A stretch of 64,000 bases of DNA from Mya arenaria (Eukaryota > Mollusca > Bivalvia > Myida > Myidae), in assembly GCF_026914265.1 (NCBI RefSeq), contig NC_069129.1:26395650-26459649 (forward strand), written 5' to 3'. Made by a program: the position numbers and the translations under genes. The notes under the pieces were generated by a model. It had not been told where the DNA came from and ran no database searches. It saw only the letters and a list, made by a program, of their open reading frames with translations. Positions 7,172 to 39,190 of the stretch are shown here, piece by piece (within the stretch, counting starts at the first letter, position 1; each line of letters opens with the position of its first letter).

Positions 7172-7934
7172 AACAAGAGGGCCCTGAATGCCCTGTATCG
7201 CTCACCTGGTCCAATTCAATTACCTTGCTGTAGTAAGTACATTCCGATCAGATTTCATATAGACATAGTAGAACTATGGCCTCAAAAGTTCTTTAACAAT
7301 ATTTGACTTGACTTTGTGACCTTGTTTTTGAACTCATGTTACCATGTTTCAAACTTGACATAGACTTCATAAACACAAACATTCAGACATAGTTTCATGG
7401 TGATCAAATAGAGAATGTAACCTCTACAGTGTTTACAAAGTTTTTTCTATAATTTGACCTAGTGGCCTGATTTTTGACCTCTGATTACACAAGTTTCATG
7501 AGCATAATTATCGTTAACATGTTAACATGAGGATACATTTATAAATGTGACCTCTAGAGTTTTAGCAAGCTTTTCCTTCAATTTGACCTAGTTTTTGGAT
7601 CCACATGACCCAGATTTAAACTTGACCTAGGGATTATTGATATTAACATTCTGTCCAAGCTTCTTAAAGATATGGTCATAAATAAACCTCTATAGTGTTA
7701 ATAGGCTTTTCATTTAATTTGACCAGGTGACCTAGTTTTTAACTCCAAATGAACCAATATCGAACTCATCCAACATTTTATTGCGGGTAACATTCTGACC
7801 AAGTTTCATTAAGATTGTGTCCAAATTGTGACCTCTAGAGGGTTAACAGTCAAATTGTTGACGACGGACGACCACGGACTCAGGGCGATCACAATAGCTC
7901 ACCTTGAAGCACTTCGTGCTCAAGTGAGCTAAAA
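7172..7934 (+). mobile_element. Pearl-like element A (non-autonomous, tandem core)
   Basis: Starts AACAAGAG followed by the hairpin GGGCCCTGAATGCCC and a CTGTATCGCTCACCT head. The core has four or five diverged ~145-bp units, each with a TTTGACCTAGT block. An impure ACGG stretch (about 7858-7880) is followed by a 3' hairpin at 7896-7930 (AGCTCACCTTGAAGCAC / GTGCTCAAGTGAGCT) and then AAAA. No coding capacity is seen. The order head hairpin, repeats, ACGG microsatellite, tail hairpin fits the bivalve pearl elements; kinship to Helentron-type rolling-circle elements is inferred. Confidence 0.75.
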
Positions 7935-8741
7935 ATATTACTGGGTATGTCTACCTAAGTATTTGATTGCCCTTTTAAAAAAAATATATGCATATTAAAG
8001 TACATCAATTGTTCACCATGTTAAGGTCAATGAATCTACCATGTGAAGTTAAATGAATCTACCATGTTAAGATAAATGAATAACACTACTTTAAACTAAA
8101 ACATAAAGGAAATTTACAGACAATGGAGGTCTAACATGTTCTTCACAATAACATAACAGGAAATAGAACTTGACATGTATTTCATCTGTTTTTCAATAAC
8201 ATAACATAAAATAGAAATGGACATGTATTTCATCTGTTTTTTTAAGTGCCATATTTCAAATATATTGATTGTCACATTTGCAAAAGGTACACTATGTAAA
8301 AGGATGATATGTACAGTTAATTCATGTGATAAAAGTTATATGACGTTATGAAAGTCTTTATGACCACATCTGCATATATACTTATGTGTTATTTGTTTTG
8401 TTGTTTAATATCAGGTAGTTTAAAGAGAGTTATTACAGAAATAAAGATTTTTAAACAAAATGCATTTTTTTTTTACAAAAGTATCAAGGATATGGGCTTT
8501 ATGCATGAAACACCATTGGAACAGAAATATTTGATATGTCTCAAAAGACTAGCAATGGAAATATCACACTCGGAAGTAGCAAATGATCATCAGAGGAGCA
8601 AAAAACATTAAGAGAAAATGCAATTTCTCTTAAACTATCAGCATTCCAATTGAAAATTAGACATGTATATAATGATATCAAATGAACCTCAAACAGGGAT
8701 TGACAACCAGAGTTGGTGGAAAACATTTCGAAGCAATTATT
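7935..8741. other. AT-rich spacer without a recognised gene
   Basis: Holds short local duplications, such as repeated ATGAATCTACCATGT phrases near 8030-8060 and two similar ~65-bp stretches around 8150-8250. An open frame of 87 codons at 8348-8611 has no recognisable motif. Confidence 0.6.
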
Positions 8742-8815
8742 AACAAGAGCTGTCACAGAGACAGCGCGTTCGACTACTCCGTCGCTTTTATGTGTAAGGA
8801 TTGAAAAGTTTTGGT
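8742..8815 (+). mobile_element. Head of another ACAAGAG-type repeat
   Basis: AACAAGAG followed at once by a perfect hairpin, CTGTCACAGAGACAG (8750-8764), and then GCGTTCGACTACTCCGTCGC. It is the same design as the heads of elements A, B, D and F but with a different hairpin. No tandem core or 3' tail is clear downstream, so the end is unknown and it may be truncated. Confidence 0.5.
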
Positions 8816-9150
8816 GAAACATGCATGGATCACTTTAAATTGGATTAGAGTGATGCCAAACTTAATGCAAACTATAGTTATTTTACTTGTTTTTTAGTAA
8901 ATTGGATGGTTTAGTACCATTGTATAAAATCTCAATGCAACACGATACATCAAGTAGTTGCTGAGATATCAACCTATGTGTGCCTACATGCAACACTTTT
9001 ACCAGAATTTCAAAGTCAAATAATAAAGGCCCATTTGCACTATACTCAAATAAGTGTTATCTTACTTCATTAATTTGGTAAGTTATATAAATGGGAATAC
9101 ATATCCAAAGTTTCAATGCAGTAAATGATGTAGTTACTAGAGATAATGGC

Positions 9151-9515
9151 TTAAAGCTGCACTCTCACAGGTTGAACGTTTTGACGACTTTTTTTTATTT
9201 TTTGTCATGGAACAAGCTAATTTTTGAGAAAATCCATGTAAACCATTTATATAAGACTGCTGACAAAAAATCAGATGGCAGATTGTTATATAAAGTTCAA
9301 AAATTGATATTTTATGCATTTTCCTTATACTGTTAGTAACAGTTTAAGCAATAAAACATTAATTTTGGTATGGAAATATGAAAATCTACGATCAGATTTT
9401 TTGTCAGCAATCTTATATCATTGGTTTGCAAATATTTACGCCAAAATTTGCTCTTTCCAAGACACAAAATAAAAAAAGTTGCAAAAATGGTATATCTGTG
9501 AGAGTGCAGCTTTAA
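9151..9515. mobile_element. Fold-back MITE, TTAA-flanked (family 1, copy 1)
   Basis: Terminal repeats TTAAAGCTGCACTCTCACAG (left) and its complement at the right end. The two halves are largely complementary throughout, so the element can fold into one long hairpin. TTAA at each end fits a TTAA target. Second copy at 10717-11218, decayed copy near 55537-55715. Confidence 0.85.
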
Positions 9516-9711
9516 ATGTTCATACCAGTATATGCAAAATCTTAAACAAGATGTCCAGCCGACGCTGCTGCCGACATAACGCAGAGTAGTATAGTTCTCC
9601 ATTCTTCATTCAGTTCAGCTAAAAACAAAATGATTCTTACTTTTTTCAAATACTCAAATACTGTCATAACAGTTACAGCACTTTTATGAAAAAGGAAACT
9701 GAACATATCAG

Positions 9712-12700
9712 TCAGGAGAAGAATGTTTGTGCTAAAACATCTCTGAAAAGAAGGCCATTGCCTGGATTTTGAATTTGAAAATGAAAGTCATGATCTGGTT
9801 GATCAACATCAAAATCGTCCAGACGATCAAATATGTCTCCATTATCTAGACCAAAGTTGTGGAGGAAGGAGCAGGTCAATATTATCTGGCAGCATCGCTG
9901 GGGCTGTACACGAAGGCCATATGAAAGGCAAGGAAACCTGCGCTTCAACACACCGTATGTCTGTTCAATAATGACTCGAGTCTTTACTAGGGCTCTGTTA
10001 TATCTGAAATTTATACAACAATCATATCATGGGCATATACTTATACAACGCAATTAATGTTAAAGGTACTAGACACTAGATGGTCCCAAAGTTAGCAATA
10101 ACATGATCCAGTATGAGTGAAATGTCACTTACACATCTAAACAAATTTTAGCACATCTTATCATTTACATATGTTACATTTCTTTTATTTGCCCTGCTTG
10201 GCATGAGTATCATACCTTTCCTGTGCTTGTGATCGTGTGTTCAGGTATGGTGTTAGAAGGTAACGTCGGCACGCATAACCACTGTCACCAAGCAAGTAAC
10301 CATCCATGACACCTGTTCGACATATTATATAATACAACATCAAAATACATCAGACATAATCAAATGCGGTCAATAAGAACATGAATATTTACACCTCACA
10401 CTGCTTTTCAGGCTTCAACATGTAAAAACTATTAATAATCACAAATTTCTTAAGATATGATTTTGTGTATTTATTATTTTACAGTTTGCAATAATTTTAG
10501 AATCTTTGATTAATCTTGGATTTGGAAGCAATGGTACATAATAAAATGGTACAAAGATCTATTGCCAGACTGAGACACATACAATGACATACTTCATCAC
10601 TTGACCATTGTTCAATTGCTCACCATTTATATAATGGTGAACAATTGAACAATGGTCAAGTGATGAAGAATGTCATTGTATGTGTGAAAAGGAATTGTTT
10701 CAAAAACATGACTACCTTAAAGCTGCACTCTCACAGATTGACCATTTTAACAACTATTTTATTTTTTGTCTTGGAAAGAGCAAATTTTTGGCGTAAATAT
10801 CTGCAAACCAATGATATAAGATTGCTGACAAAAAATCTGATAGTAGATTTTCATATTTCCGTACCAAAATTAATGTTTTATTACTTAAACCCTTACTAAC
10901 GGTTTAAGAAAAATGCATAAAATATCAATTTTTGAACAATCTGCCATCTGATTTTTGTCAGCAGTCTTATATAAATGGTTTACACATGGGTGAAAGTTTG
11001 AATTTTTCAAAATACTGAAAATAGGGTGTTTACATGGGGAAATGCCATTTTTACAATACATTATATAGGATAAATATTTTCTAAAATACTGAATTCAGTA
11101 TCAATACTGAAAACTTTCACCCATGTTTACATGGATTCTCTCAAAAGTTGGCTTGTTCCAGGACAAAAAAATCAAAATAATTTGTCAAAACGTTCAATCT
11201 GTGAGAGTGCAGCTTTAAGAATATGAAACTGGAAGTTATGTCCATCAATTATTTTACTGAAAGTACCATATACAAATATTTTTTTAACTTTTTTCCCAAT
11301 TACTTTGTTAATTTTTTTAAAAAAACAACAATTTTATTTTGCAAAAATCACAGATTTGTATCATAAAAAATCATTTTACATCAAGAATGATTCCAATTGA
11401 AAACATTTTAACAGAAATATTGACAACATGTTATGAAAATTTCAAGATTATGGAAGTTTTAGTACTGAAAGTTTTCACCCATTTTTAGGAAATAATCTAC
11501 TTACAAACTTCCATTAACAAACGCCCTGTTAAATTATGTTTTACCATTTAAATATACCTGGCAATCTTAAACTCAGAAAATGTGTGTATTTGTATGGTTA
11601 TATGACATTAAATGAGACATCAAAGTAAAAGAAAAATGCATTTTCATTGAAATACACGAGCATTGATTCATTTACCATTTTCCAAATCCAGGCATAAGGA
11701 AGATTGCCGGAATATGCGGGCATCATGGACACTTCCAGGCCACTTCACAACTACATTTTGAATCCGGAACCCAGCATCACATACCATCTGAAAATACAAT
11801 GACAATTGTTGATTATGTTTCAGTCCAGTTGTTCATTTCTGGAGTAAGATTGAACAAAAAGAATGAGTATTACAATGACAAGAGGGCCATGATGGCCCTG
11901 TATCGCTCACCTGTAGCTTTGCTAAATAAAGTGAACATTCTGACCTATTATCATAAAGATCCAATGAAAAGTATGGCCCCTAGAGGCCACTCTTTTATTT
12001 GTCCCACTGACCTAGTTTTTTACCCCACATGACCCTATCAGTAGGCAATGCTTCAAACCAAATATTTAAGACCTAGTCCTTGTGGCTTCAGACAAGAAAA
12101 TTTTAAAGTTTTTTCCTATATAAGCCTATGTTAAACTTGTGACACCCAGGGTGAGGCCTCTTTTCACCACAGGTGCACAAATTGAACAATCTTGGTAGCG
12201 GGCCACTAGGTTATGCCACATATAAAATGCCAATGTCTTGTTGGTTTAGACAAGAAGTTTTTTGTTCTATATAAGCCTATGCAAAACTTGTGACTCCCCC
12301 CAGGATAGGGCCTCTTCTCCCCAGGGGCATAAATTGAACAATCTTGGTAGAGGACCACTTGGTTATGATACATACCAAATATTGAATGCGTAGGCCTTGC
12401 ATTTTCAGACAAGAAGATTTTTAAACACTTTCCTTATATAAGCCTATGTAAAACTTGTGACCCCCTAGGTGGGGCCTCTTATCACTTCAGGGGCATAATT
12501 TGAATAATCTCGGTAGAGAACCACAAGGTAAAGCTACATACCATATATCAAATGCCTAGGCCTTGTGGTTTTAGACAAGATTTTAAGTTTTCACTAAATA
12601 AGCCTATGTAAAACTTGCGACCCCCGGGCAGGGCCTCTTATCACTCCAGAGGCATAATTAGAACAATCTTGGTAGATGTCCATAAAGTAATTATACATGC

Positions 12701-15700
12701 CAAATATCAAAGCCCTAGGACTTCTAGTTTTGGAGAAGATTTGTTAAGTTTTCCATATCTAAGTCTATGTAAACCACGTGACCCGGGGCGGGGTCATTTT
12801 TGACCCCAGGGGCATAATTTGAACAATCTTGGTAGAGGTCCATTAGGTGATGCTACATATCAAATATCAAAGCTCTAGGCCTTGTGGTTTTGGAGGAGAA
12901 TTTTTTTTAAGTTTTTCTTATCGGTTACCATGGCAACCAGAGTTTCGCATGGAATCCATGTCTTTGAACAACTTTGGTAGAGCTTCATGCAAGGAACATC
13001 CCTGCCAAGTTTCATCATGATTGGCCAAGGGGTTAAGGAGATGTTGTTCGAAGCAAAATGTTGACGAACGACATACATCAAGCGGTCACAAAAGCTCATT
13101 ATGTCACTGCGTGACAGGTGAGCTAACCATAGGGCCATGGTGGCCCTGTATCGCTTACCTGCCATCGATCCATACTATTGGGACTTTCAGGATTGCAATG
13201 CATCAATATTTTGAGTTACTGGTTCTTCCTTAATTGTTAGTAATTAATGGATGCCACCAGGCGACAAGTTTACTTTGTTGTTAACAATCATGAATGAATG
13301 GAAGTTGTCATAGTATATTAATTAGCAAACAAAATACAAACAACATCTTCAAAGGGTTTTATTAATGTGTTTATTAAACATTTACTTGTGCCAAATTTTC
13401 TATAAAAACAAACATCTTCAAAATCAACAGAATGCATCAAAAAGTTGTGGGAACAAACCTTGAAAAGTATGATGGAAAAGATGGGTTCAAGGGAATGATA
13501 TGAAGAAAATTTCTGATTTGTTGAATAGGGATTGGTATTAGCTGCAAAAAATGAGGGCATTAACAGTTCTAACACTGGACTTTTAACGTCAAGGTAACAT
13601 GAAGGTGATGGTCACAATTGTAAGTGAATGGGAACTACATCAATAATGACAATGATAACATCAATGCAGACACAATGTAGTTGGTGACAACATTTTTACT
13701 TTTTCCAGGAAACAACTGAGCTCTAAGTTCTTTGGTTTTTGAATGTTTTAAATGTGTCAGTAATAGTATTCTTGTGCCAAGGTAACTATGACAGACAGAT
13801 AGGCTAACAAAAATGTACAAATATGTACACTATTATTTGTGTAGACTGCACATACTGTTGAGTACAAATGTGAAACGTTCAATAGTAGTCAGCCAATTGC
13901 AAATGAGAACATGAAATTATATTGAATAGTAGCACATTGGTGACATATTTTTAAGATTTTTGCAAACAAGAGGCACATCAGTGCCTGTGCTGCACTGGCC
14001 TACAGGCTCAAGCAAAGGCCACCTAACAAACATTTTCGCCAAGTTAAATAGAAATACAATCATCGGTTTCTGAAGAAAAGTCATTTAAAGATTTTTCTAT
14101 TTTTAGCTCTGATGCCCATGTTGTGCAGCGGACCAGAACGGTTTGGGCAATTTGAGTTAACAAGGACCACCAAAGGAACATTTCTGTCAAGTTTACTGAG
14201 ATAAGATTATTGGTTTTTGATGAAGTTGTTTAAAGGTTTTTCCATTTTTTAGTCTTGGCGGCCATGTTGTGCAGCGGAATGGACCCATTTGATAGATTTT
14301 GGTTAAGGACCACCCAAGGAACATTTATGTTAAGTCTAATCAAAATCTGATCATCGATTTCTGAAAAGATGTCGTTTAAAACTTTTTCTATTTTTAGCTG
14401 CGCCGCCATGTTATGCAGTGGACCAGAAACATTTAGGCAATTTCGGTCATCGAACTTGACCTATATTTTTCTAGAGATGATCATTCTGACCAAGTTGAAT
14501 TGAGTTAAGCCTAAAATTGTGACATCTATTATGTTCACAAGGTTTTTCTACTAATTGACCTAGTGACCTAGTTTTTGACCTGGGTTGACCCAATATGGAA
14601 CTTGACCTAGCTTATGTTAAGATGATCATTCTGACCAAGTTTCATTAAGATAAGGCTAAAATTGTGACCTCTATTTTGTTCACAAGGTTTTTCTAATAAT
14701 TGACCTAGTGACCTAGTTATTGACTGCGTATGACCCAATATCGAACTTGACCCAGATTTTATAGAGATGATCATTCTGACCAAGTTGCATTAAGATTAGC
14801 CTAAAATTGTGACCTCTATTGTGTTCACAAGGTTTTTGTACTAATTGACCTAGTGACCTAGTTATTGACCGCAGATGACCCAATATCGAACTTGACCTAG
14901 ATTTTATAGAGATTATCATTCTGACCAAGTTGCATTGAGATTAGGCTAAAATTGTTACCTCTATTGTGTTCACAAGGTTTTTGTACTAATTGACCTAGTG
15001 ACCTAGTTATTGACCGTGAATGACCCAATATCAAACTTGACCTACATTTTATAGCGATGATCATTCTGACCAAGTTGCATTGAGATTAGGCTAAAATTGT
15101 GACCTCTATTGTGTTCACAAGGTTTTTCTACTAATTGACCTAGTGACCTAGTTATTGACCGCGGATGACCCAATATCGAACTTGACCTACATTTTATAGA
15201 GATGATCATTCTGACCAAGTTGCATTGAGATTAGGCTAAAATTGTGACCTCTAATGTGTTCACAAGGTATTTCTACTAATTGACCTAGTGACCTAGTTTT
15301 TGACCCCAGATGACCCAATATCGAACTTGACCTAGATTTTATAGAGATGATCAGTCTGACCAAGTTTCATAAAGATTAGGTCAAAATTGTGACCTCTGTT
15401 GTGTTCACAAGGTTTTTCTAATAATTGACCTAGTGACCTAGTTATTGACTGCGGATGACCCAATATCGAACTTGACCTAGATTTTATAGAGATGATTATT
15501 CTGACCAACTTGCATTGAGATTAGGCTAAAATTGTGACCTCTATTGTGTTCACAAGGTTTTTGTACTAATTGACCTAGTGACCTAGTTGTTGACCGCGGA
15601 TGACCCAATATCGAACTTGACCTACATTTTATAGAGATGATCATTCTGACCAAGTTGCATTGAGATTAGGCTAAAATTGTGACCTCTATTGTGTTCACAA

Positions 15701-17922
15701 GGTTTTTCTACTAATTGACCTAGTGACCTAGTTTTTGACCTGGGTTGACCCAATATGGAACTTGACCTAGCTTATGTTAAGATGATCATTCTGACCAAGT
15801 TTCATTAAGATAAGGCTAAAATTGTGACCTCTATTTTGTTCACAAGGTTTTTCTAATAATTGACCTAGTGACCTAGTTATTGACTGCGTATGACCCAATA
15901 TCGAACTTGACCCAGATTTTATAGAGATGATCATTCTGACCTAGTTGCATTAAGATTAGCCTAAAATTGTGACCTCTATTGTGTTCACAAGGTTTTTGTA
16001 CTAATTGACCTAGTGACCTAGTTATTGACCGCGGATGACCCAATATCGAACTTGACCTAGATTTTATAGAGATGATCATTCTGACCAAGTTGCATTGAGA
16101 TTAGGCTAAAATTGTGACCTCTATTGTGTTCACAAGATTTTTGTACTAATTGACCTAGTGACCTAGTTATTGACCGTGAATGACCCAATATCGAACTTGA
16201 CCTACATTTTACAGCGATGATCATTCTGACCAATTTGCATTGAGATTAGGCTAAAATTGTGACCTCTATTGTGTTCACAAGGTTTTTCTACTAATTGACC
16301 TAGTGACCTAGTTATTGACCGCGGATGACCCAATATCGAACTTGACCTAGATTTTATAGAGATGATCATTCTGACCAAGTTGCATTGAGATTAGGCTAAA
16401 ATTGTGACCTCTAATGTGTTCACAAGGTATTTCTACTAATTGACCTACTGACCTAGTTTTTGACCCCAGATGACCCAATATCGAACTTGACCTAGATTTT
16501 ATAGAGATGATCAGTCTGACCAAGTTTCATAAAGATTAGGTCAAAATTGTGACCTCTGTTGTGTTCACAAGGTTTTTCTAATAATTGACCTAGTGACCTA
16601 GTTATTGACTGCGGATGACCCAATATCGAACTTGACCTAGATTTTATAGAGATGATTATTCTGACCAACTTGCATTGAGATTAGGCTAAAATTGTGACTT
16701 CTATTGTGTTCACAAGGTTTTTGTACTAATTGACCTAGTGACCTAGTTGTTGACCGCGGATGACCCAATATCGAACTTGTCCTACATTTTATAGAGATGA
16801 TCATTCTGACCAAGTTGCATTGAGATTAGGCTAAAATTGTGACCTCTATTGTGTTCACAAGGTTTTTCTACTAATTGACCTAGTGACCTAATTATTGACC
16901 GCGGATGACCCAATATCGAACTTGACCTAGATCTTATAGAGATGACCATTCTGACCAAGTTGCATTGAGATTAGGCTAAAATTGTGACCTCTATTGTGTT
17001 CACAAGGTTTTTCTACTAATTGACCTAGTGACCTAGTTTTTGACCCCAGATGACCCAATATCGAACTTGACCTAGATTTTATAGAGATGATCAGTCTGAC
17101 CAAGTTTCATAAAGATTAGGTCAAAATTGTGACCTCTATTGTGTTCACAAGCAATTGTGAACGGACGGACGGACGGACGGACGGACGGACGGACGGACGG
17201 ACGGACGGACGGACGGACGGACGGACGGACGACGGACGAAGAGTGATCACAAAAGCTCACCTTGTCACTACGTGACAGGTGAGCTAAAAAGTGAGTGTTT
17301 CTTCTGCATGATTGCAAGGAGTGTACTAGTGAAGATATAAGTACATTTAGAGCAAAAATTCATATGTCAGTCATTGAAATTAGACTTTCGGATAAACAAA
17401 CCCGAATTCTTATACTATATTGCATGGAATCATGTTTTTGAACAAGCCCTGCTATATAAACTTCAGAATTTGAGCAAGCCCGGAAGACATTTTACTAGTG
17501 CGTGGCTTGCATGCTTGTGCTAATTTCGACCACTGATATGTTATTAAAACCATGAAATTTACAGGAAGAACTTTCAATCATACTATCACCATTGGCATTG
17601 CCAAGGCAAGTGAGTACACTATGAAAGTTGTTATAAGCTACATGCTAAGGCCAAACAATTTACAAATACAACATTGCAGCTTGGTAAGGATGACCATTAC
17701 ATTTCGTATAAAACTAGAACATCTATAAGATTTATTGACAACAAAACATTTATGATCTTTTTTCAGACAGTTATATCATTTTCAGTTGTATCAGTATGTA
17801 AGTTCTCACCTGCACATTGATAGAGTGATAGCCATTGCGATTTACATAGTCCTCCTCATACTGGTGAGGGGCATTTATTCGTATGTGGGTTCCATCCACC
17901 AGTCCAATGACATTTGGAAATC
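9712..17922 (-). CDS. PIF/Harbinger transposase (HARBI1-like), four 3' exons; N-terminus not found
   Basis: Exons in transcript order, complement of 17810-17922, 11676-11787, 10216-10312 and 9712-10003; all junctions have GT/AG ends and fitting phases, giving 203 codons and a stop without interruption. The three catalytic acids of the DDE nuclease are present: Asp in [10 protein letters not shown] (first exon), Asp in [19 protein letters not shown] (third), Glu in [19 protein letters not shown] (last). Other family marks are [13 protein letters not shown] and [19 protein letters not shown]1 proteins are about 350 residues, so the N-terminal ~145 residues should lie upstream but were not recognised. 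Introns hold two pearl-like elements, D and B. It converges on the Myb/SANT-like genes, the usual partner of this transposase. Whether it is a domesticated gene or an inflated transposon is open; no terminal inverted repeats were found. Confidence 0.85.
10575..10685. repeat. Near-perfect long hairpin (about 53-bp arms, 5-base loop)
   Basis: The arm 10575-10627 is complementary to 10633-10685 with only a few mismatches, around a TATAT loop. It lies in an intron of the HARBI1-like gene and differs from the neighbouring MITEs. Confidence 0.85.
10717..11218. mobile_element. Fold-back MITE, TTAA-flanked (family 1, copy 2), split by a nested MITE
   Basis: Same terminal repeats as 9151-9515 and TTAA at both ends, but longer by a 142-bp insertion plus its 5-bp target copy at 10984-11130. 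Outside the insert it aligns with copy 1 in reverse orientation. Confidence 0.85.
10984..11125. mobile_element. Small MITE nested inside a MITE
   Basis: Inverted ends CATGGGTGAAAGTTT and AAACTTTCACCCATG. Flanked by TTTAC at 10979-10983 and 11126-11130; the uninterrupted MITE at 9151-9515 has a single TTTAC at this site (on the other strand), which confirms a 5-bp target duplication. Confidence 0.8.
11878..13127 (+). mobile_element. Pearl-like element B
   Basis: Head ACAAGAG with hairpin GGGCCATGATGGCCC and CTGTATCGCTCACCT, as in element A. The core differs: five or six units of about 150-165 bp, each with an AACAATCTTGGTAGAG block and an AAGCCTATGTAAAACTTGTGA block. A short remnant (ACGAACGAC) stands where the ACGG stretch normally is. 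The 3' hairpin lies at 13093-13124. No coding capacity. It sits in an intron of the HARBI1-like gene. Confidence 0.75.
13130..13165 (+). mobile_element. Detached head of a pearl-like element
   Basis: Two bases after element B ends, TAGGGCCATGGTGGCCCTG with TATCGCTTACCTG repeats the head hairpin of elements A and B. No core or tail follows: a truncated element or a failed end. Confidence 0.55.
13166..13964. other. Intronic spacer without a recognised gene
   Basis: AT-rich single-copy sequence inside the long intron of the HARBI1-like gene. No repeat or coding signal was recognised. Confidence 0.6.
14440..17150 (+). repeat. 145-bp tandem array with an 8-monomer (1160-bp) higher-order repeat
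   Basis: About 18-19 monomers, each with TTGACCTAGTGACCTAGTT, TGACCCAATATCGAACTTGA and GATCATTCTGACCAAGTT blocks. Distinctive variants recur exactly 1160 bases apart: the TGGGTTGACCCAATATGG monomer at about 14580 and 15740, and the long minus-strand open frames at 14713 and 15873. So blocks of eight monomers were duplicated after the monomers had diverged. Confidence 0.9.
17161..17240 (+). repeat. ACGG microsatellite
   Basis: About 17 uninterrupted ACGG units at 17161-17230, then GACGGACGA. It sits between the tandem core and the 3' hairpin of element D, the position typical of bivalve pearl elements. Confidence 0.97.
17291..17809. other. Intronic spacer of the HARBI1-like gene
   Basis: No repeat or gene recognised between element D and the exon at 17810. 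Confidence 0.6.
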
Positions 17923-21025: not shown

Positions 21026-22163
21026 AACAAGATATGTTTTGATGTTTGCTCCCCCTCCTGCCCCCTTGGACATTGGATGCCTTTGAGGCAGTTTACAGAT
21101 TATGACTATTCAAAATGGGATGATAGTAGGTTCAGCTTTTAATCATGTTCAGATATTGATAAATATTTGCAGATAAAAATATATTGTCTTAGCAGCAGGG
21201 AATAAGTAAATATGATGTAAATCTAAATGATGAATATGACTTATGACCATGACCTTTGACTCTATGATCTCAAAATCTGTAGGGGTCATCAACTGGTCAC
21301 CCTCTCCCTAAATATTAAGTTTAAGGGCCATGGAATCAGGCATTGCTGAGTTATCACACAAACAAGCTGTTTACATTCAAGGTCACTGTAACCTTGACCT
21401 TTGACCCGATGACTCCTAAATTCAATCGGGGTCATCTACTGGACATGCCCAGCCTCCATGTCAAGTTTGAAGATCATAGGTCTAGGCATTGTTTAGATAT
21501 CACTTGGAGAAGCTTTGTTAACCTTTTCGCATTAAAGGTCACTGTTACCTTGAACATTGGCCCAATGACCCCTTAAATCAATAGGGGTCATCTACTGGTC
21601 AGGTCTAACCTTCACGTCAAGTTTGATGACAATAGGTCCAGTTATTGTCGAGTTTGCATTCAACGTCACTGATACCTTTACCTTTGACCCCTAAAATCAA
21701 TAGGGGTCATCTACTGGTCAGGGCAAACCTCCAAGGCAGGTTTGAGGGCCGTGTGTGCAGGCATTGTCTAGTTATAACTCGGACAACCTTTTATCATTCT
21801 AGGTCACTGTGACCTTGACTTTTGACCTGATGACCCCTAAAATATAAATGGGTCATCTACTGGTCAGCCTCCATGTCAAGCTTGATGACCATAGGTATAG
21901 GCATTGTTGAGTTATCACTCAGACAAGCTTTGAGAACATTTTACCATTAAAGGTCACTGTGACCTTGATATTTGACCTGATGACATCTAAAATCAATAGG
22001 GGTCCTCTACTGTTCAGGCTCAACCTTCATGTCAAGTTTGATGACCATACGTTCAGGAATTGTCGAGTTATCGATCGGACAAGCTTTGGTCTATGGACGA
22101 ACCAACTGACCGACTGACATGTGCAAAGCAATATACCCCTTATTCTTTGAAGGGGGCATAAAA
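21026..22163 (+). mobile_element. Pearl-like element E
   Basis: Head AACAAGATATGTTTTGATGTTTG, a decayed form of the head of element F (38239). Five ~150-bp core units, each with GGTCACTGTGACCTTGA, TGACCCCTAAAATCAATAGG and GTTGAGTTATCACTC blocks. Then a CCGACTGAC remnant of the ACCG stretch and a 3' hairpin (CCCCTT..AAGGGG, 22136-22155) followed by GCATAAAA. Confidence 0.72.
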
Positions 22164-23020: not shown

Positions 23021-25012
23021 AACTAGAGCTATCACTGAAGGTTATAAATACCCCGAACGCCGTCTCTTGTTATGATTTATCATAGTATGAAGTTTTATGC
23101 TATTCCATTTAGTAGTTTTCAAGTTACTTTCCGGACAAAAGTTTGACAAAAAACACAGAAAAAGGCAATAACTCTGTAATTTGCTAAAATAATGTAATGA
23201 TTCATGTACATTGAACTCCTTCTTATTGTGTTGTACCATTGTATAAAGTTTTATTACATCCCATCCGGTAGTTTTCAAGTTATACTCCGGACAAGAAAAA
23301 AGTAACAAAGGGCAATGACTCTGTAATTGGCTGAAAAAGAATTGCATTTCCAGTGCACTGCACTATTTCTCATTATGATCTATCACTGTATGAAGTTTTA
23401 TTAAATTCCATCCAATACTTTTCAAGTTATGCTTCGGACAAGAAAAAGTAACAAAAGGGTAGTAACTCTGTAATTAGCTGAAATAGAATTGCGGTTCCTG
23501 TACACTGCACTCCCTCTCATTATGATCTATCATTGAATGAAGTTTTATAAAATTCCATCATGTAGTTTTCAAGTTATGCTCCATACAAGAAAAAGTAACA
23601 AAGGGCAATGACTCTGTAATTAGCTGAAATAGAATTGCGGTTCCTGTACACTGCACTCCCTCTCATTATGATCTATCACCGTAAAAAGTTTTATTAAATT
23701 CCATCCAATAGTTTTCAAGTTATGCTCCGGACAAGAAAAAGGAACAAAGGGCAGTAACTCTGTAATAGGCTGAAATATAATTGCGATTCCTGTATACTGC
23801 ACTCCCTCTTATTATGATCTATCACTGAATGAAGTTTTATAAAATTCCATCCGGTAGTTTTCAAGTTATGCTCCGGACAAGAAAAAGTAACAAAGGGCAA
23901 TGACTCTGTAATTAGCTGAAATAGAATTGCGATTTCTATACACTGCACTCCCTCTCATTATGATCTATCACTGTAAGAAGTTTTATTAAATTCCATCCAA
24001 TAGTTTTCAAGTTATGCTCCAGACGAGAAAAAGTAACAAAGGGCAGTAACTCTGTAATAGGCTGAAATATAATTGCGATTCCTGTATACTGCACTCCCAC
24101 TCATTATGATCTATCACTGTATGAAGTTTTATAAAATTCCATCCAATAGTTTTCAAGTTATGCTCCGGACAAGAAAAAGTAACAAAGGGCAATGACTCTG
24201 TAATTAGCTGAAATAGAATTGCGGTTTCTGTACACTGCACTCCCTCTCATTATGATCTATCACTGTAAGAAGTTTTATTAAATTTCATCCAATAGTTTTC
24301 AAGTTATGCTCCAGACGAGAAAAAGTAACAAAGGGCAGTAACTCTGTAATAGGCTGAAATATAATTGCGATTACTGTATACTGCACTCCCTCTCATTATA
24401 ATCTATCACTGTATGAAGTTTAATTAAATTACATCCAATAGTTTTCAAGTAATGCTCCGGACAAGAAAAAAAACAAAGGACAGTAACTCTGTAATTAGCT
24501 GAAATAGAGTTATGGTTCTTGTGCACTGCAGTTCCTCTCATTGTGCTTTACCATTGTATTAAGTTTTAATAAATTCCATCTAGTAGTTTGCAAGTTAATG
24601 TCTGAAAAAAATTGACAGCAATAAAAACTAATAAAGGGTAATAACTCAGTAATTAGCTAAAGTAGAGTTATGGTTCTTGAACACTGCACTTTCTATCGTT
24701 GTGCTTTACCACTGTATGAAGTTCCAATGAATTCCATCCAGTACTTTTCAAGTTATACTCGGGACAAAAAAGTAACAAAGGGCAATAACTCAGTGATAAG
24801 CAAGAATAGAGTTATGGTTATTGTAGACTGCACTTCCTCTCATTATGCTCTACCATTGTATGAAGTTGAATTCAATAGTTTTTAAGTAATGCTCCGGACA
24901 AGGTAAATTGCAACGGACCGACCAACCGACAAACTGATCGACCGACTGACCGACCACAGGGTGACTCCAATGTACCCCCTTCAAACTTCGTTTGTTGGGG
25001 AAATAATAATAG
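23021..25012 (+). mobile_element. Pearl-like element G with a 146-bp core in dimer register
   Basis: Head AACTAGAGCTATCACTGAAGG, then about 12 units of ~146 bp (each with AACTCTGTAAT, TTCCATCCAATAGTTTTCAA and TATGCTCCGGACAAGAAAAA blocks). Then CCGACC-type repeats (24914-24955) and a 3' hairpin at 24975-25000 (ACCCCCTTCAAACTTCGTTT onward). In the middle of the array two monomer types alternate (CAATGACTCTGTAATTAGC and CAGTAACTCTGTAATAGGC), giving a 292-bp period. Confidence 0.78.
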
Positions 25013-30904: not shown

Positions 30905-30912
30905 TTTAATAT

Positions 30913-31325: not shown

Positions 31326-34300
31326 AACAAGAGCGTCGTCTTGGTATGTCGAACACATGTGGCAAGTTATTTTCAAATCTGTCCATACAAGAAAAAGTTA
31401 CTGCCCGGACATAACAACCAATACTCTGTATCCTTATATGCAGCACTCCATTGTGAATAAACACCTAAGTGTGACCTTGACCTTAGAGGTAGGGACACGG
31501 TTCTTGCACGTGACACGTCGTCTTGGTATGTCGAACACATATGTAAAGTTATTTTAAATTCTGTCCATACAAGGGAAAGTAACAGCCAGGACACGACAAC
31601 CTATAGTTTATGTCCTTATATGCAGCAAGTGTGACCTTGACCTAAGAGGAAGGGACACGAATCTTGCACTCGACATGTCGTCTTGGTATGTCAAACACAT
31701 GTGGCAAGTTATTTTATTATCTTTCTATACAAGGGAAAGTTACAGCCCAGACACGACAACCTATACTCTATCTCCTTATATGCAGCACTCCATTGTGAAT
31801 AAACACTAAGTGTGACCTTGACCTAAGAAATAGGGACACGGATCTTGCACGTGACACGTCGTCTTGGTATGCCGAACACATGTGGCAAGTTATTTTAAAA
31901 TCTGTCCATACAAGGGAAAGTAACAGCCAGGACACGACAACCTATACTCTATGTCCTTATATGCAGCATTCCATTGTGAATAAACACCAAGTGTGACCTT
32001 GACCTAAGAGGTAGGGACACGAATTTTGCACGCGACACGTCGACATGGTATGTCGAACACATGTGGCAAGTTATTTTAAAATCTGTCCATACAAGGGAAA
32101 GTTACAGCCCGGACACAACAACCTATACTCTATGTCCTTATATGCAGCACTCCATTGTGAATAAACACCTATGTATGACCTTGACCTTAGAGGTAAGGAC
32201 ACGGGTCTTGCACGCGACACGTCGTCTTGGTATGCCGAACACATGTGGCAAGTTATTTCAAAATCTGTCCATACACGGGAAAGTAACAGCCCGGAAACGA
32301 CAACCTATACTCTATGTCCTTATATGCAGCATTCCATTGTGAATAAACACTAAGTGTGACCTTAACCTAAGAGGTATGGACACGGGTCTTGCACTCGACA
32401 TGTCGTCTTGGTATGCAGAACACATGTGGCAAGTTATTTTAAAATCTGTCCATAAAAGGGAAAGTTACAGCCCGGACACAACAACCTTTACTCTATGTCC
32501 TTATATGCAGCACTCCATTGTGAATAAACACTAAGTGTGACCTTGACCTTAGAGGTAGGGACACGGGTCTTGCACGTGACACGTCCTCTTGTTATGTGGA
32601 ACACATGTGGCAAGTTATTTTAAAATTTGTCCATACAAGGGAGAGTTACAGCCAGGACACGACAACCTATACTCTATGTCCTTATATGCAGCACTCCGTT
32701 GTAAATAAACAACTAAGTGTGACCTTGACCCTAGAGGTAGGGACACAGGTCTTGCACGCGACACGTCGTCTTGGTATGTGGAACACATGTGGCAAGTTAT
32801 TTTAAAATCTGTCCATACAAGGGAAAGTTACAGCCCGGACACGACAACCTATACTCTATCTCCTTATATGCAGCACTCCATTGTGAATAAACACCTAAGT
32901 TTGACCTTGACCTTAGAGGTAGGGACACGGTTCTTGCACGTGACACGTCGTCTTGGTATGCCGAACACACGTGGCAGATTACTTTAAAATCTGTCCATAC
33001 AAGGGAAAGTTACAGCCCGGACACGATAATCTATACTCTATGTCCTTATATGCAGCATTCCATTGTGAATAAACACCAAGTGTGACCTTGACCTAAGAGG
33101 TAGGGACACGAATTTTGCACGCCACACGTCGTCTTGGTATGCCAAACACATGTGGCAAGTTATTTTAAAATCTGTCCATACAAGGGAAAGTTACAGCCCG
33201 GACACAACAACCTATACTCTATGTCCTTATATGCAGCACTCCATTGTGAATAAACACCTATGTGTGACCTTGACCTTAGAGGTAGGGACACGGGTCTTGC
33301 ACGCGACACGTCGACTTGGTATGCCGAACACATGTGGCAAGTTATTTTAAAATCTGTCCATACAAGGGAAAGTAACAGCCCGGAAACGACAACCTATACT
33401 CTATGTCCTTATATGCAGCATTCCATTGTGAATAAACACTAAGTGTGACCTTAACCTAAGAGGTAGGGACACGGGTCTTGCACTCGACATGTCGTCTTGG
33501 TATGCAGAACACATGTGGCAAGTTATTTTAAAATCTGTCCATAAAAGGGAAAGTTACAGCCCGGACACAACAACCTATACTCTATGTCCTTATATGCAGC
33601 ACTCCATTGTGAATAAACACTAAGTGTGACCTTGACCTTAGAGGTAGGGACACGGGTCTTGCACGTGACACGTCCTCTTGTTATGTGGAACACATGTGGC
33701 AAGTTATTTTAAAATCTGTCCATACAAGGGAGAGTTACAGCCAGGACACGACAACCTATACTCTATGTCCTTATATGCAGCACTGCGTTGTAAATAAACA
33801 ACTAAGTGTGACCTTGACCCTAGAGGTAGGGACACAGGTCTTTGACGCGACACGTCGTCTTGGTATGTGGAACACATGTGGCAAGTTATTTTAAAATCTG
33901 TCCATACAAGGGAAAGTTACAGCCCGGACACGACAACCTATACTCTATCTCCTTATATGCAGCACTCCATTGTGAATAAACACCTAAGTTTGACCTTGAC
34001 CTTAGAGGTAGGGACACGGTTCTTGCACGTGACACGTCGTCTTGGTATGCCGAACACACGTGGCAAGTTACTTTAAAATCTGTCCATACAAGGGAAAGTT
34101 ACAGCCCGGAAACGATAATCTATACTCTATGTCCTTATATGCAGCATTCCATTGTGAATAAACACTAAGTATGACCTTGACCTTAGAGGTAGGGACACGG
34201 GTCTTGCACGCGACACGTCGACATGGTATGTCGAACACATGTGGCAAGTTATTTTAAAATCTGTCCATACAAGGGAAAGTTACAGCCCGGACACAACAAC

Positions 34301-36382
34301 CTATACTCTATGTCCTTATATGCAGCACTCCATTGTGAATAAACACCTATGTGTGACCTTGACCTTAGAGGTAGGGACACGGGTCTTGCACGCGACACGT
34401 CGTCTTGGTATGCCGAACACATGTGGCAAGTTATTTTAAAATCTGTCCATACAAGGGAAAGTAACAGCCCGGAAACGACAACCTATACTCTATGTCCTTA
34501 TATGCAGCATTCCATTGTGAATAAACACTAAGTGTGACCTTAACCTAAGAGGTAGGGACACGGGTCTTGCACTCGACATGTCGTCTTGGTATGCAGAACA
34601 CATGTGGCAAGTTATTTTAAAATCTGTCCATAAAAGGGAAAGTTACAGCCCGGACACAACAACCTTTACTCTATGTCCTTATATGCAGCACTCCATTGTG
34701 AATAAACACTAAGTGTGACCTTGACCTTAGAGGTAGGGACACGGGTCTTGCACGTGACACGTCCTCTTGTTATGTGGAACACATGTGGCAAGTTATTTTA
34801 AAATCTGTCCATACAAGGGAGAGTTACAGCCAGGACACGACAACCTATACTCTATGTCCTTATATGCAGCACTCCGTTGTAAATAAACAACTAAGTGTGA
34901 CCTTGACCCTAGAGGTAGGGACACAGGTCTTTGACGCGACACGTCGTCTTGGTATGTGGAACACATGTGGCAAGTTATTTTAAAATCTGTCCATACAAGG
35001 GAAAGTTACAGCCCGGACACAACAACCTATACTCTATGTCCTTATATGCAGCATTCCATTGTGAATAAACACTAAGTGTGACCTTAACCTAAGAGGTAGG
35101 GACACGGGTCTTGCACTCGACATGTCGTCTTGGTATGCAGAACACATGTGGCAAGTTATTTTAAAATCTGTCCATAAAAGGGAAAGTTACAGCCCGGACA
35201 CAACAACCTTTACTCTATGTCCTTATATGCAGCACTCCATTGTGAATAAACACTAAGTGTGACCTTGACCTTAGAGGTAGGGACACGGGTCTTGCACGTG
35301 ACACGTCCTCTTGTTATGTGGAACACATGTGGCAAGTTATTTTAAAATCTGTCCATACAAGGGAGAGTTACAGCCAGGACACGACAACCTATACTCTATG
35401 TCCTTATATGCAGCACTCCGTTGTAAATAAACAACTAAGTGTGACCTTGACCCTAGAGGTAGGGACACAGGTCTTTGACGCGACACGTCGTCTTGGTATG
35501 TGGAACACATGTGGCAAGTTATTTTAAAATCTGTCCATACAAGGGAAAGTTACAGCCCGGACGCGACAACCTATACTCTATCTCCTTATATGCAGCACTC
35601 CATTGTGAATAAACACCTAAGTTTGACCTTGACCTTAGAGGTAGGGACACGGTTCTTGCACGTGACACGTCGTCTTGGTATGCCGAACACACGTGGCAAG
35701 TTACTTTAAAATCTGTCCATACAAGGGAAAGTTACAGCCCGGAAACGATAATCTATACTCTATGTCCTTATATGCAGCATTCCATTGTGAATAAACACTA
35801 AGTATGACCTTGACCTTAGAGGTAGGGACACGGGTCTTGCATGCGACACGTCGACATGGTATGTCGAACACATGTGGCAAGTTATTTTAAAATCTGTCCA
35901 TACAAGGGAAAGTTACAGCCAGGACACGACAACCTATACTCTATGTCCTTATATGCAGCATTCCATTGTGAATAAACACTAAGTGTGACCTTGACCCAAG
36001 AGGTAGGGACACGGGTCTTGCACGCGACACGTCGTCTTGGTAAGCCAAACAAATGTGGCAAGTTATTTTAAAATATGTCAATACAAGGGAAAGTTACAGC
36101 CCGGAAACGACCACCTATACTCTATGTCCTTATATGCAGCATTCCATTGTGAATAAACACCTAAGTGTGACATTGACCTTAGAGGTAGGGACACGGTTCT
36201 TGCACGCGACACGTCGTCTTGGTATGCCAAACACATGTGGCAAGTTATTTTAAAATCTGTCAATAAAAGGGAGAGTTACAGCCCGGACACGAGTTATTGA
36301 GCCGGACACACGGACGGACGGAAGGACGGACGGACGGGTGCGATTTTACGATTTTAATTTGCCCACCTTCGGGGGCATAAAA
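31326..36382 (+). mobile_element. Pearl-like element H, 5 kb, ~182-bp satellite core
   Basis: Head AACAAGAGCGTCGTCTTGG, then about 27 monomers of ~181-182 bp (each with GAACACATGTGGCAAGTTAT, CCTTATATGCAGCACTCCAT and GTGACCTTGACCTTAGAGG). Then an impure ACGG stretch (36309-36338), a 3' hairpin GCCCACCTTCGGGGGC (36361-36376) and ATAAAA. The repeated open frames in it are a by-product of the monomer. It is the largest such element here and lies in the intron of the minus-strand gene fragment. Confidence 0.85.
32050..35720 (+). repeat. Higher-order repeat in element H: six monomers, 1089 bp
   Basis: Variant monomers recur at exactly 1089 bases: 32061, 33150 and 34239 for one type, 32596, 33685 and 34774 for another. 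The last step is 544 bases (34774 to 35318), half a block, so three monomers were duplicated or lost there. Blocks are almost identical to each other while monomers within a block differ, which shows recent block-wise amplification. Confidence 0.9.
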
Positions 36383-36939
36383 TGCGCCATTTTGACTAAA
36401 TTTAGAAATGCAAGTTACTTGCTTTAAAGTTAGACATAATAAGATTGTTTTCTTTGAGAATTAATCAACATTTCAATAAAAAAACATACGCGGACCCATT
36501 TTTTTTTAAATCAACTTTTATTTTTACATTTTTGGAAAAGTATATGTTTTAAGTTTGGTAATGTGTCAAAAATTATTGGTCAGAATTTGTTTCACTTGCT
36601 TGGTTATTTCTGGTTTCAGGCAAGGTATTCACTATACCAAGTATACCTAACATCTACATGAGTCTATGAAAAGTCTGAAACAAACTAGAGATATCACAGA
36701 ATTGATGAATGCCCCCAAAAACAGGGCGAGGTTGGAACATGATGACACAAATGCAACTCAATTATATCCCATTATACCAAACTAAAGACTGAATGAAAGT
36801 CTACTATATTATAAGAAAATATTTGTTTCATGTCTATATTTTGAACAGTTTTTCTCTACCGATGACAACAGTGATAACACCAGTTCTTGCCAATATATCA
36901 TTCCCCCCTCCTCCTACAACAAAAAGACAGCGTTCTTAC
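36383..36939. other. Spacer 3' of element H
   Basis: No gene or repeat recognised up to the minus-strand exon at 36940-36994. Confidence 0.5.
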
Positions 36940-36994
36940 CTGAAACACAGATTGCCCCAAATCGTTGTCTACGGATCGTGAAGATTTGCAAGGT

Positions 36995-37772
36995 CTGCAA
37001 CGTTCAGCTCCGAAAATATGGGTAACCGACGCGCACCACCTTCCTCGTTTGATAGGTACCAGGATAAGCGCTTCAGGGCTTCTGATCGTACCCGGTGTGC
37101 GGATGATGGAACCAGTTTAATATATTTTTGTTTTTTTTATTCCACAATACTTTCTTGTTATTCTAGTTTCAAACTTCTTTATATTTAACCTTTGAGAAAC
37201 AACTTACTACACTATTATGCTAATCACTGTCTTTGGCATAATGTTATGGCCTGCTGGTGTGTAAGCTCATTTATACTCGCACATGGGCCTTGCCCATTCA
37301 CAAAAATTGAAATGATTTAGATATTCAATAAAAAAAATCAGCAATGTTTTAGCACTTTTTAACGTTGGAATTGTGGCTATGTAGCTATTAACTCCAGAAC
37401 TTACTTTAAGTTTAAAGGTCACCATGACCTCAAATCCATGGGGGTCATATTTTGACCCCGTCAAATGTGCATATCACATTTGATGACTTTGCACATTTGA
37501 CGACTCTGGAACATGAAATTCAATGGATATTGATCCTAAACAAACATGTGACGGACAAGTCATTCCTTTGTGTCTGCCATGCTCACCAGGTGACACAAAA
37601 GCAGACAAGCTTCAACTATTGTGCGATTCTTGACTCACCACAATTTTAGACTCATTTAAACACTAAGTGCAACTCGAAAATTAAAAGCTAAAGAGACTCA
37701 GAAGAGTATGGATTCAAATGACATCACTACAACAGTAACCCCCTTTGCGTGTGAATACGTCCCCAAACTTAC
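36995..37772. other. Intron of the minus-strand gene fragment
   Basis: Single-copy sequence; near 37470-37500 the phrase CACATTTGATGACTTTG / CACATTTGACGACTC is locally repeated. No exon recognised. Confidence 0.5.
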
Positions 37773-38238
37773 TTTAGGTCTGTAGACAGCATACATCGCA
37801 GTGTTCCCCGGAGTTTCTCCCCTTGGGTGATCTCACTTGAGGAAGTGGAGGGTTTGGTTTCCAGCATGGCTAGAATACTGGTTCCCAGCACTGTGTTAAC
37901 ACATGCATATGACTGAAAGAACGTGCAAATGTCAGGTTTTGATAAACCAGCAGCAGAAATAGCGGAAAAATATCGTTTTTTTTCTCTCACTAACATGTGA
38001 ATGATCAAAAGAACATTTATTTCTTATTTTTGTATTCTTAATGCATTTTCTTTCATGCTTTGACTGAAATATCAAGCTATTTTTATCTTTCTCTTATTTT
38101 CACTTCAATGAAAATATCATTTTTATTTGATTCATTGATTTCTGTGATCACATGGTGAAATATAGTTTGATGTTCCACCCAAATACAACAAGTATCTCTT
38201 TATTTATTCGTTAAAACAACAAACATAGGATGAAAAGT

Positions 38239-39190
38239 AACAAGAGATGTTTGTCAAACATTATGCCACCCGTGAGTGCCATGTTGTCAGGATTATTTGG
38301 ACAATTTTGGAATGAAATATGCATGGACTGAAATGAAAGCTGATTTGTCATTGAGGCAGATTTAAGATAATGACCACTCAAAGTGTGATGACAGTAGGTA
38401 CATAGTTTTATCATGTTCAGATGATGAATGATATTTGTAGATAAAAGTGTATCCTCTTAGCAGCAGGGAACAAGTAAATATAATGAAATGTTTATGATGA
38501 ATATGAGTTATAACCATGACCTTTAACTCTATGACCACAAAACCAAAATCAACTGGTCACCCCAAACCTAAATGTCAAGTTTGAGGCCCATGGGTGCAGG
38601 CATTGTCAAGTTATCACACAGACAAGCTCTTTGCGTTCAAGGTCGCTATGACCTTGACCCTTGAACCAATGACTCCTAAATCAAAAGGGGTAATCTCAAG
38701 GACATGCCCAACACCAAAGTCGAGTTTGAGGGCCATGGGTGCAGGCGTTGTCGATTTATCACTAGAACAATATTTTCGCATTCAAGGTCACTATAACCTT
38801 GCCTCGATGACTCCTAAAAGCAATCTACTGGTCAGGCCCATCCTCCATTTCAAGTTTGATAACTATAAGTCCAGGAATTGTCAAATATGCCTTCCAGGTC
38901 ACTGTGACCTAGACCCAGCCTCCCTGTCAAGTTTGATGGCCCAAGGTCTAGGCACTGTTCAGTTATCACTCGGACAAGCTTTAAAATCCGTTTTACCAGT
39001 AAAGGTCATTGTAACCTTGACCTTTTACCCGATGACCACTAAAATCAATAGGACCATATGTCAAGGAATTGTTGAGTTATCACTCAGACAAGCTTTGGTC
39101 TACCGACGGGCCGACCGACCAACCTACAGACCAACAGACCAACACGTGCAAAGCAATATACCACTCTTTTCCGAAGGGGGGGGGCATACT
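38239..39190 (+). mobile_element. Pearl-like element F
   Basis: Head AACAAGAG with the hairpin ATGTTTGTCAAACAT (38247-38261). Core of about four ~150-bp units of the same family as element E (GGTCACTGTGACCT, TCAAGTTTGA..CC..AGG blocks), then GGGCCGACCGACCAACC and a tail ending GAAGGGGG..GCATAC. About 0.95 kb. Confidence 0.75.

Follow-up and report, generated by a model that had tools for sequence, protein, structure and literature searches.

A 64,000-nucleotide stretch of the Mya arenaria genome (C8:26395650-26459649, hereafter the window) holds a series of tandem-repeat elements that a preliminary description had likened to the pearl elements of bivalves, and it raises the question of what moves such elements and how one plan of ends comes to enclose different satellite cores. 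Having compared the window with the assembly (1.216 Gb, 18 contigs), we consider it highly likely that these repeats are minus-strand Helentron-associated interspersed elements (HINEs), a family of non-autonomous Helentrons, moved by Helentrons of the same genome that encode Rep, helicase and endonuclease domains, with composites and deletions arising through terminator bypass and trimming at the arrays. Elements are named here by the window position of their 3' end, which for the five ACAAGAG heads lies at most one base from the starts first reported; L001-L100 denote genome loci fetched from the same assembly, and published work is cited from the parts available to us.

The arrays reported at these places were borne out by a tandem-array scan of the window, the ACGG/ACCG stretches and tails described with them are present in the sequence, and our own boundaries give a coverage of 15,305 bp (23.9% of the window), in keeping with the first estimate of about 14.5 kb (23%). 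The plan of head, ~160-bp tandem core, microsatellite and hairpin tail is that of pearl, with 31327 and 21028 as exceptions and with 11878 and 13966 forming one unit; the likeness to bivalve pearl elements was apt, although earlier work had already moved pearl to the non-autonomous Helentrons (PMC7492417). The head word ACAAGAG stands on the plus strand at 7173, 11878, 13966, 31327 and 38240, whereas 21028, to which it had also been attributed, reads ACAAGAT; the ACTAGAG variant assigned to 23021 is found at 23022. Counting both strands, the head motif is found 14 times in the window where 8.0 would be expected, a count reached by 3 of 100 shuffles, and the word ACAAGAG alone is near chance and proves little. 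The short hairpin said mostly to follow the head takes the form of a palindrome of at least 5 bp in four of the seven, and only that of 11878 clearly beats shuffles, the number folding equally well or better out of 200 being 8 for 11878, 49 for 13966, 50 for 38240, 70 for 31327, 84 for 7173, 179 for 23022 and 200 for 21028. By the same test, four of the tail hairpins fold above shuffles (7880-7935, 13085-13128 and 17240-17289, each 0/200; the 36340 tail, 7/200), whereas three do not differ significantly from 200 shuffles (22120, 23; 24950, 49; 39140, 61).

The published HINE order runs from a 5' subterminal inverted repeat (subTIR) through an inverted repeat, a microsatellite and tandem repeats to a 3' subTIR and a palindrome (PMC7492417, PMC4067079). 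Because the window elements match this order on the minus strand, and because the reading frame of an autonomous Helentron at L034 heads towards CTCTTGT, the polarity first given has to be reversed: ACAAGAG with its palindrome is the Helentron 3' end, and ACGG with its hairpin the 5' end. As in HINEs, a short inverted repeat and a microsatellite, here the ACGG/ACCG stretches, lie inside the 5' end. SubTIRs, measured as the longest stretch shared by both ends and compared with 500 shuffles, reach 10 bp in the composite described below (1/500) and in its inner unit #1 (3/500) and 9 bp in 21028 (24/500), against a published HINE range of 11-15 bp; they are at most 6 bp and not significant in 7173, 23022, 38240 and 31327. 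Among relatives elsewhere in the genome, the shared stretch measures 11 bp in autonomous L034, 12 bp in the F element of L076, 11 bp in the L022 element and 6 bp in the F element of L070 (220/500).

Evidence for an autonomous partner came from a Helitron_like_N search of the genome, which gave 85 matches; at L034 and L035 the match falls within an open frame, 2,422 aa long in the first and 2,468 aa in the second. The frame of L034, a single one across L034 and L043, carries Helitron_like_N (PF14214), PIF1 (PF05970) and Exo_endo_phos (PF03372), which is the Helentron set of domains. About 450 bp past it stands GGGGGGCATAATGTTTGACAAACATCTCTTGTT, the reverse complement of the 38240 head, and over the last 60 bp the 3' ends of L034 and 38240 are identical in 55 of 61 aligned columns (shuffle maximum, 42). 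The 5' end of L034 and L035, TTATTATGCCCCC, was set by comparing two copies with differing flanks, and inside it lie a GTCGG microsatellite and then ~145-bp repeats. The first 50 bp of L034 agree with 21028 in 43/53 columns and with 38240 in 37/57 (shuffle maxima 32 and 33, respectively); the 3' end of 21028 is degraded, at 42/66 against a maximum of 41. End and array of L034 taken together align with 21028 at 63% over 975 columns (E 2e-70). By these alignments, a Helentron that itself bears the satellite appears to have 38240 and 21028 as shortened relatives. None of the remaining window heads and tails compared with the L034 ends exceeded the shuffle maximum, and tblastn with the Rep-element frames read found no remains of Helentron coding sequence, either in the window or in the composite. 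Of the idea that the hairpins serve as structural ends for a rolling-circle enzyme, the assignment of the ends to a rolling-circle transposon is supported by a Rep/helicase/endonuclease element with a 38240-type 3' end and a matching 5' end, while the orientation assumed does not hold; the search for such an element with the same ends succeeded for 38240 and, at the 5' end, for 21028, but not for ends of the GCTCACC type.

Other Rep elements, bounded by two copies (L014/L015 and L009/L011) or by eye (L012 and L031), end in TTCTAGTT or CTCTAGTT, and these ends resemble, by eye, the ACTAGAG heads at 23022 and 36684. The protein of L032, L033 and L036 is 98-99% like that of L034 where compared; set against L034/L035, these three loci align over 124 bp at 100%, 99.2% and 99.2% and then switch abruptly to a different 3' end. 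As a separate observation, L044, L046 and L047 on one side and L034/L045 on the other have near-identical Rep proteins with two unrelated 3' ends past a sharp break, a naturally occurring instance of a changed 3' end.

The ends recur throughout the genome. Allowing any 5-base loop and up to two mismatches, the composite-type 3' end has 1,821 matches (906/915 by strand), and the composite-type 5' end, with up to two mismatches, has 733 (365/368 by strand), the control giving 0 in each search. Among 100 exact 3' ends listed, all on C1-C4, 62 of the 71 with an ATGAT-like loop were paired with a correctly oriented 5' end at most 15 kb downstream, compared with 1 of the 29 with other loops, and the wrong geometry was seen three times. 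The 63 paired lengths among these listed ends take 61 values between 1,142 and 10,122 bp (median 3,110), a spread to which array length adds. An empty site is available for a related HINE (L022/L062) that sits inside a Rep gene, with the copies at L018, L019 and L021 empty at that position: empty CCAATGG-AAAAAA-CTG becomes CCAATGG-AAA, element, AAA-CTG, so that all six As are kept and no target is duplicated. Insertion within an A run (a T run on the other strand) without duplication is a HINE trait, and head and tail are co-terminal with the insertion at L022, so the outcome that the preliminary description had named as contrary to its view, ends that do not coincide with insertions, was not seen there. 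A candidate element end at L021 was rejected, as it lies within a larger repeat. The older filing of pearl, as tandem-repeat miniature inverted-repeat transposable elements (MITEs) moved by a DDE transposase, would fit the short inverted repeats and the high copy number, but the repeats are subterminal, the site read carries no duplication, and an element with Rep, PIF1 and endonuclease domains bears the 38240 ends, so that we find this alternative scarcely credible.

Two of the seven elements originally counted, 11878 and 13965, proved to be one 5.4-kb mobile unit spanning 11878-17289. A search with 13966-14610 returned further head copies at 99-100%, and ten copies besides the window (L066-L075) also match the leftward sequence at 97-99%. 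The left edge is ACAAGAG at 11878 in all ten further copies, with differing flanks (alignments of L079 and L081 run 7 and 4 bases past it, as chance flank likeness could give), and the right edge is a 17289-type end in the four of four copies that reach it (five were fetched; L089 stops short). With 10/10 left and 4/4 right edges between different flanks, 11878-17289 therefore moves as one unit, and in this family too heads and tails are co-terminal with the insertion, judged by the edges of its copies. Inside the unit, #1 is followed by an altered 3' end (ACCATAG), 800 bp of further sequence, a nested core F element and array A. What had been read as an element head at 13966 is actually the end of this truncated nested element and shares only 5 bp with the 17289 tail (458/500 shuffles); in L070 and L074 the nested F element is longer, with its own 5' end by eye, whereas in the window it is cut. 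All 26 genome matches of 13126-13960 start at its first base (13 full-length and 13 shortened), and tblastn found no similarity between 13161..13965 and the Rep-element frames read. Core B of #1 carries, by eye, a BIV160 reverse primer site (20/21 bases at 12799-12819) and a recognisable forward site.

Such a composite may have formed by terminator bypass, copying from the upstream 5' end having run past the altered 3' terminator into the neighbouring element. For Helraiser this behaviour is established, the 3' hairpin terminator being skipped with new 3' ends as the result (PMC4778049). A composite made by nested insertion alone, without rolling-circle read-through, and then spread by segmental duplication would suit the nesting of the F element, which in L070 and L074 is longer and has both of its ends. 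Since a duplication would not be expected to respect the outer element edges, and ten copies stop at the outer 3' end and 4/4 of those reached at the outer 5' end, between unrelated flanks, this account appears very unlikely.

A longer relative of the composite holds the same arrays. The copy at L074 (C1:29615263-29631109, 15.85 kb) has the same two ends and contains, in order, #1 with core B, the second 3' end, the F element, a long unique part with an OB-fold open reading frame (ORF), array A and the 5' end. Array A was matched at 95.8-99.2% identity in three of six samples, the other three preceding it or lying past the 5' end; the 5' end carries a 7-bp hairpin deletion, and L070 has the longer F array of the two copies. 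We infer that this copy stands for the parent and that the others are its deletions. As an observation in its own right, the unique part holds, on the element's strand, an OB-fold (single-strand-binding-like) ORF and a zinc-ribbon-like ORF (L100:2919-3215 and 1926-2501, minus). The first gave no Pfam match, while a PDB sequence search recognised the OB fold (single-strand-binding proteins, E 7.5e-6); the genome holds a single full match to it besides a weak one (33%, E 8e-4), and one match to the adjoining ORF, and the pair could derive from a host gene captured in this copy or be what remains of a transposon gene whose other copies are gone.

Shortened copies of this parent form a ladder. We read 25 copies (the window, L066-L075, L091-L099, L039-L041, L050 and L051), located through their 3' end, through the segment at 13126 or through core F, and never through array A. 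A junction is seen in 23 of them, amounting to 20 distinct junctions, 17 of which pass straight into array A (L040 counted); L070 and L074 have no junction to array A within the stretches read continuously. The length kept from the 3' end begins at 39 bp (L041) and continues at 112, 157, 281 and 697 bp within #1, at 49-378 bp into the segment after #1 and then at several points in core F, and copies keep array A wherever it was reached. For 17 of 20 landing in array A, the binomial probability is 2e-7 at p = 0.28 and 0.001 at p = 0.5, the true share of the landing zone being uncertain. Overlap at the junction, computed for 13 of the 20, is 0-5 bp in ten, with L075 and L099 inflated by a shared 14-mer. 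Three junctions recur: that of the window in L066, that of L068 in L072, and a 240-bp break that occurs at six sites, two of them among the copies read. The first two recur at sites with different flanks; deleted forms thus moved on.

The preliminary description had supposed that the core can be swapped and had called for a check of recombination between heads and cores; in this one family, the head-core combinations are read instead as products of a long parent that lost interior stretches while retaining the array next to its 5' end, and none of the 25 copies read was noticed to carry an array that the parent lacks. Such deletions could arise if, at points of microhomology, the process of copying or joining slips away from the array, and the outcome would be 'pearl' elements of head, core and tail in which the core is whichever array adjoins the 5' end. 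For the composite family, the one read closely, we therefore favour trimming anchored in the array as the source of head-core combinations over exchange of cassettes. True cassette exchange, in which recombination between elements puts different arrays under the same ends, has been proposed for oyster elements whose flanks are alike while their repeats are unrelated, as well as for double arrays (PMC7492417), and it would suit both the near-identical Helentron proteins with two different 3' ends and the 14-base word that cores A and F have in common at the box described below. Against it, the longer copy holds both window arrays in the same order, and therefore deletion alone suffices for the double-core unit; moreover, head and tail stay paired among the listed ends (62/71 against 1/29), leaving exchange an unlikely source.

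The main alternative to trimming during transposition is that the deletions are unrelated to it, arrays being unstable after insertion and host repair deleting into the neighbouring sequence. Array lengths do vary among copies, and 17 of the 20 junctions were found in one copy only, as such instability would predict; the three that recur, by contrast, mean that at least those deleted forms moved after deletion, and we hold this alternative to be possible but doubtful. Array-anchored trimming in the course of movement would go further if the array beside a Helentron 5' end were a built-in deletion anchor: rolling-circle copying or joining would exit the array at varying points and resume downstream, new insertions would tend to arrive trimmed, and the array, together with the shared box next to the microsatellite, would be retained as a functional component rather than as a passenger. 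We put this forward tentatively; if true, the anchor role would explain why satellites are retained and how different satellite families are seeded across the genome.

Several points weigh against this overall interpretation. The genome search found no Rep-bearing partner with GCTCACC-type ends, those of 7173 and the composite, and several window elements have neither a significant subTIR nor a significant head hairpin. The only empty site read (one filled against three empty copies) belongs to a relative, L022. The ladder comes from one family, about two thirds of the L074 copy was read (~5 kb unread), and the array junctions rest on the assembly rather than on reads, so that assembly error is possible. 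Among the junctions themselves, L067 keeps 407 bp of parent interior before array A, L039 and L098 first enter a 24-bp minisatellite (the L098 read stopping before A), in L040 an inverted piece of A precedes the array, and the junction of L073 is blurred, with no exact array word for 10 bases; microhomology at the junctions is compatible with these data, not proven by them.

The satellite cores are related more closely than the 'at least four unrelated families' first described. Core A is common to 7173 and the array at 13966 (z 37.6), core C to 21028 and 38240 (z 48) and, at z 31 and 21, to the Helentron array, and a 52-bp box (CAAGTTT...AGTTAT...CGGACAAG) recurs in cores C, D and E. In an ungapped linear comparison with 200 shuffles and reverse-complement controls, the pairs C-D, C-E and D-E match at 32-33 of 52 positions with 0/200 shuffles each; the same 0/200 was obtained for B against its own last part and for that part against C and against F. 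Values for A against the last part of B (1/200), B-F (1/200) and C-F (4/200) are weaker, nothing above the 200 shuffles was found for A-C, A-D, A-E, A-F or D-F, and the reverse-complement control B-D reaches 30/52, as high as the B-F value. An attempt with circular-consensus pairwise alignment and a triple test for distant pairs was set aside, since reverse-complement controls scored alike and closures lost bases, and the linear test was used in its place. A phase-anchored test on single last monomers beats 299 of 300 random phases, a result dominated by close pairs. In the arrays inspected, the box stops, by eye, immediately ahead of the microsatellite. Part of the oyster monomers likewise have two conserved segments (PMC7492417). 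We take the box to reflect common descent or shared constraint, a similarity too weak to extend to all pairs.

The element at 31327 stands apart. Its core begins right after ACAAGAG, without palindrome or subTIR, and the head reported for it is unconfirmed: 39 further long matches, from among the best 40 candidates that were scored, have their start at 31334-31335, past ACAAGAG, and the single other locus with ACAAGAG at this type of boundary also shares the flank. The element may represent a deletion that reached the last bases of its 3' end. A 100% copy of the 31327 boundary and flank was found 1.2 Mb away on the same contig (C8:27671497-27671737, minus), either a recent segmental duplication or an assembly duplicate.

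These elements resemble several published systems. The oyster account describes HINEs with different and double satellite cores, and the Cg_HINE elements of the Pacific oyster are alike in their inverted repeat and 4-base microsatellite at the 5' end, their 140-180-bp arrays in one orientation, their TT preference without duplication, their varied cores and their few double arrays; they also have 5' and 3' subTIRs and a 3' palindrome, a likeness that extends to part of the window elements. The parts of that paper available tie no autonomous Helentron to the elements, leave the moving enzyme and the origin of double arrays open and treat the latter hypothetically (PMC7492417), whereas here an autonomous Helentron shares ends and a related array with 38240 and 21028, and the 15.85-kb copy and the shorter copies related to it explain the double core. 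Pearl elements (CvA, CvE and MgE) and DTC84 have the same plan, to which L041 conforms with its 39-bp head followed by array A; they were first filed as MITEs (PMC5139131, PMC7492417), whereas in this genome one family can be followed back to a larger copy. DINE-1, HINEs and Helentrons likewise combine a Rep/helicase/endonuclease protein with subTIRs, a 3' palindrome, T-rich termini and non-autonomous deletion derivatives (PMC4067079), the subTIRs and palindrome being clear here in part of the elements; they differ in that here the Helentron itself bears a satellite array and deletion endpoints fall in an array. A 2025 review reports deletions, tandemisation and different arrays within single Helitron or Helentron elements and also refers to a tandem-repeat MITE, miDNA4, with internal deletions driven by microhomology; miDNA4 is similar in these deletions and in array changes within a mobile element but is a Tc1/mariner MITE for which the available text describes no ladder of deletions from one parent (PMC12628747). 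The BIV160 satellite, whose published primer sites (PMC5139131) are near-exact by eye in core B, here lies inside a mobile unit with defined ends. Helraiser shares a bypassable 3' hairpin terminator but is a canonical Helitron, with no satellite arrays described in the available text (PMC4778049). Our literature search, thin on subscription journals, recognised no account of a parent with array-anchored deletions, and we make no claim to priority.

In bivalves, small rolling-circle elements bear very many satellite arrays. This genome offers a Helentron that shares its ends and its kind of array with two of the elements, a long copy with several arrays and a ladder of shortened copies, through which the spread and exchange of satellites become countable by pairing ends, measuring interiors and mapping junctions. 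The composite family shows one route by which rolling-circle elements come to bear different satellites.

Table 1. Coordinates of the repeat elements and their parts in the window.
Feature	Position	Strand	Basis or remark
HINE-type element, core A	7173..7935	-	3' end 7173, 5' hairpin end ~7895-7932; same head and/or tail in several of L001-L008
Composite mobile unit (one element)	11878..17289	-	3' end 11878, 5' end ~17287-17289; edges of genome copies
Composite 3' end: terminus, palindrome GGGCCATGATGGCCC, 3' subTIR GCTCACCTGT	11878..11912	-	Folding, genome matches
Inner unit #1, core B (BIV160-like, ~160 bp), own 5' hairpin end	11878..13125	-	Array, folding, primer sites by eye
Second, altered 3' end (ACCATAG for ACAAGAG, palindrome kept); abuts #1, forming a tandem junction	13126..13160	-	
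Internal sequence of the presumed parent	13161..13965	-	13 full-length and 13 shortened genome copies
3' part of nested HINE, core F; truncated in the window, longer with own 5' end in L070 and L074	13966..14449	-	
Core A satellite array, 145 bp x 18.6; tentative deletion anchor	14449..17151	-	
ACGG microsatellite (GTCC on the element's strand)	17153..17240	-	
5' subTIR and inverted repeat hairpin, composite-family 5' end	17252..17287	-	0/200 shuffles; 733 genome matches, control 0
Probable HINE, core C (element 21028)	21027..22163	-	5' end 43/53 against autonomous L034; 3' end degraded
Element, core D, ACTAGAG terminus	23022..25005	-	3' end by eye like L031/L012 Rep elements
Core E array, 181 bp x 26, TATGCCCCC-type 5' end	31327..36381	-	3' end (31327) unconfirmed
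Probable HINE, core C	38240..39186	-	Both ends match autonomous L034/L035

All listed window elements lie on one strand. A strand bias was considered and found unconvincing, the 3'-end family dividing 906/915 by strand genome-wide and the listed neighbours within 300 kb counting 11 on the same strand and 4 on different strands. The window also contains an extra Helentron-type 3' end at 8743 (ACAAGAGCTGTCACAGAGACAG...), with a 6-bp palindrome and no satellite array noticed beside it, and an extra ACTAGAG head at 36684 (ACTAGAGATATCACAGAATTGATGAATGCCCCC), with a GCCCCC stretch and, by eye, a likeness to the 3' ends of the L014 Rep elements. Two repeat copies with inverted ends (AAAGCTGCACTCTCACAG ... 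CTGTGAGAGTGCAGCTTTAA), at ~9151-9518 and 10718-11220, apparently belong to another mobile element. Further tandem arrays occur at 61922-62675 (37 bp x 20), 49458-49628 (53 bp x 3.2) and 18773-19049 (90 bp x 3.1).

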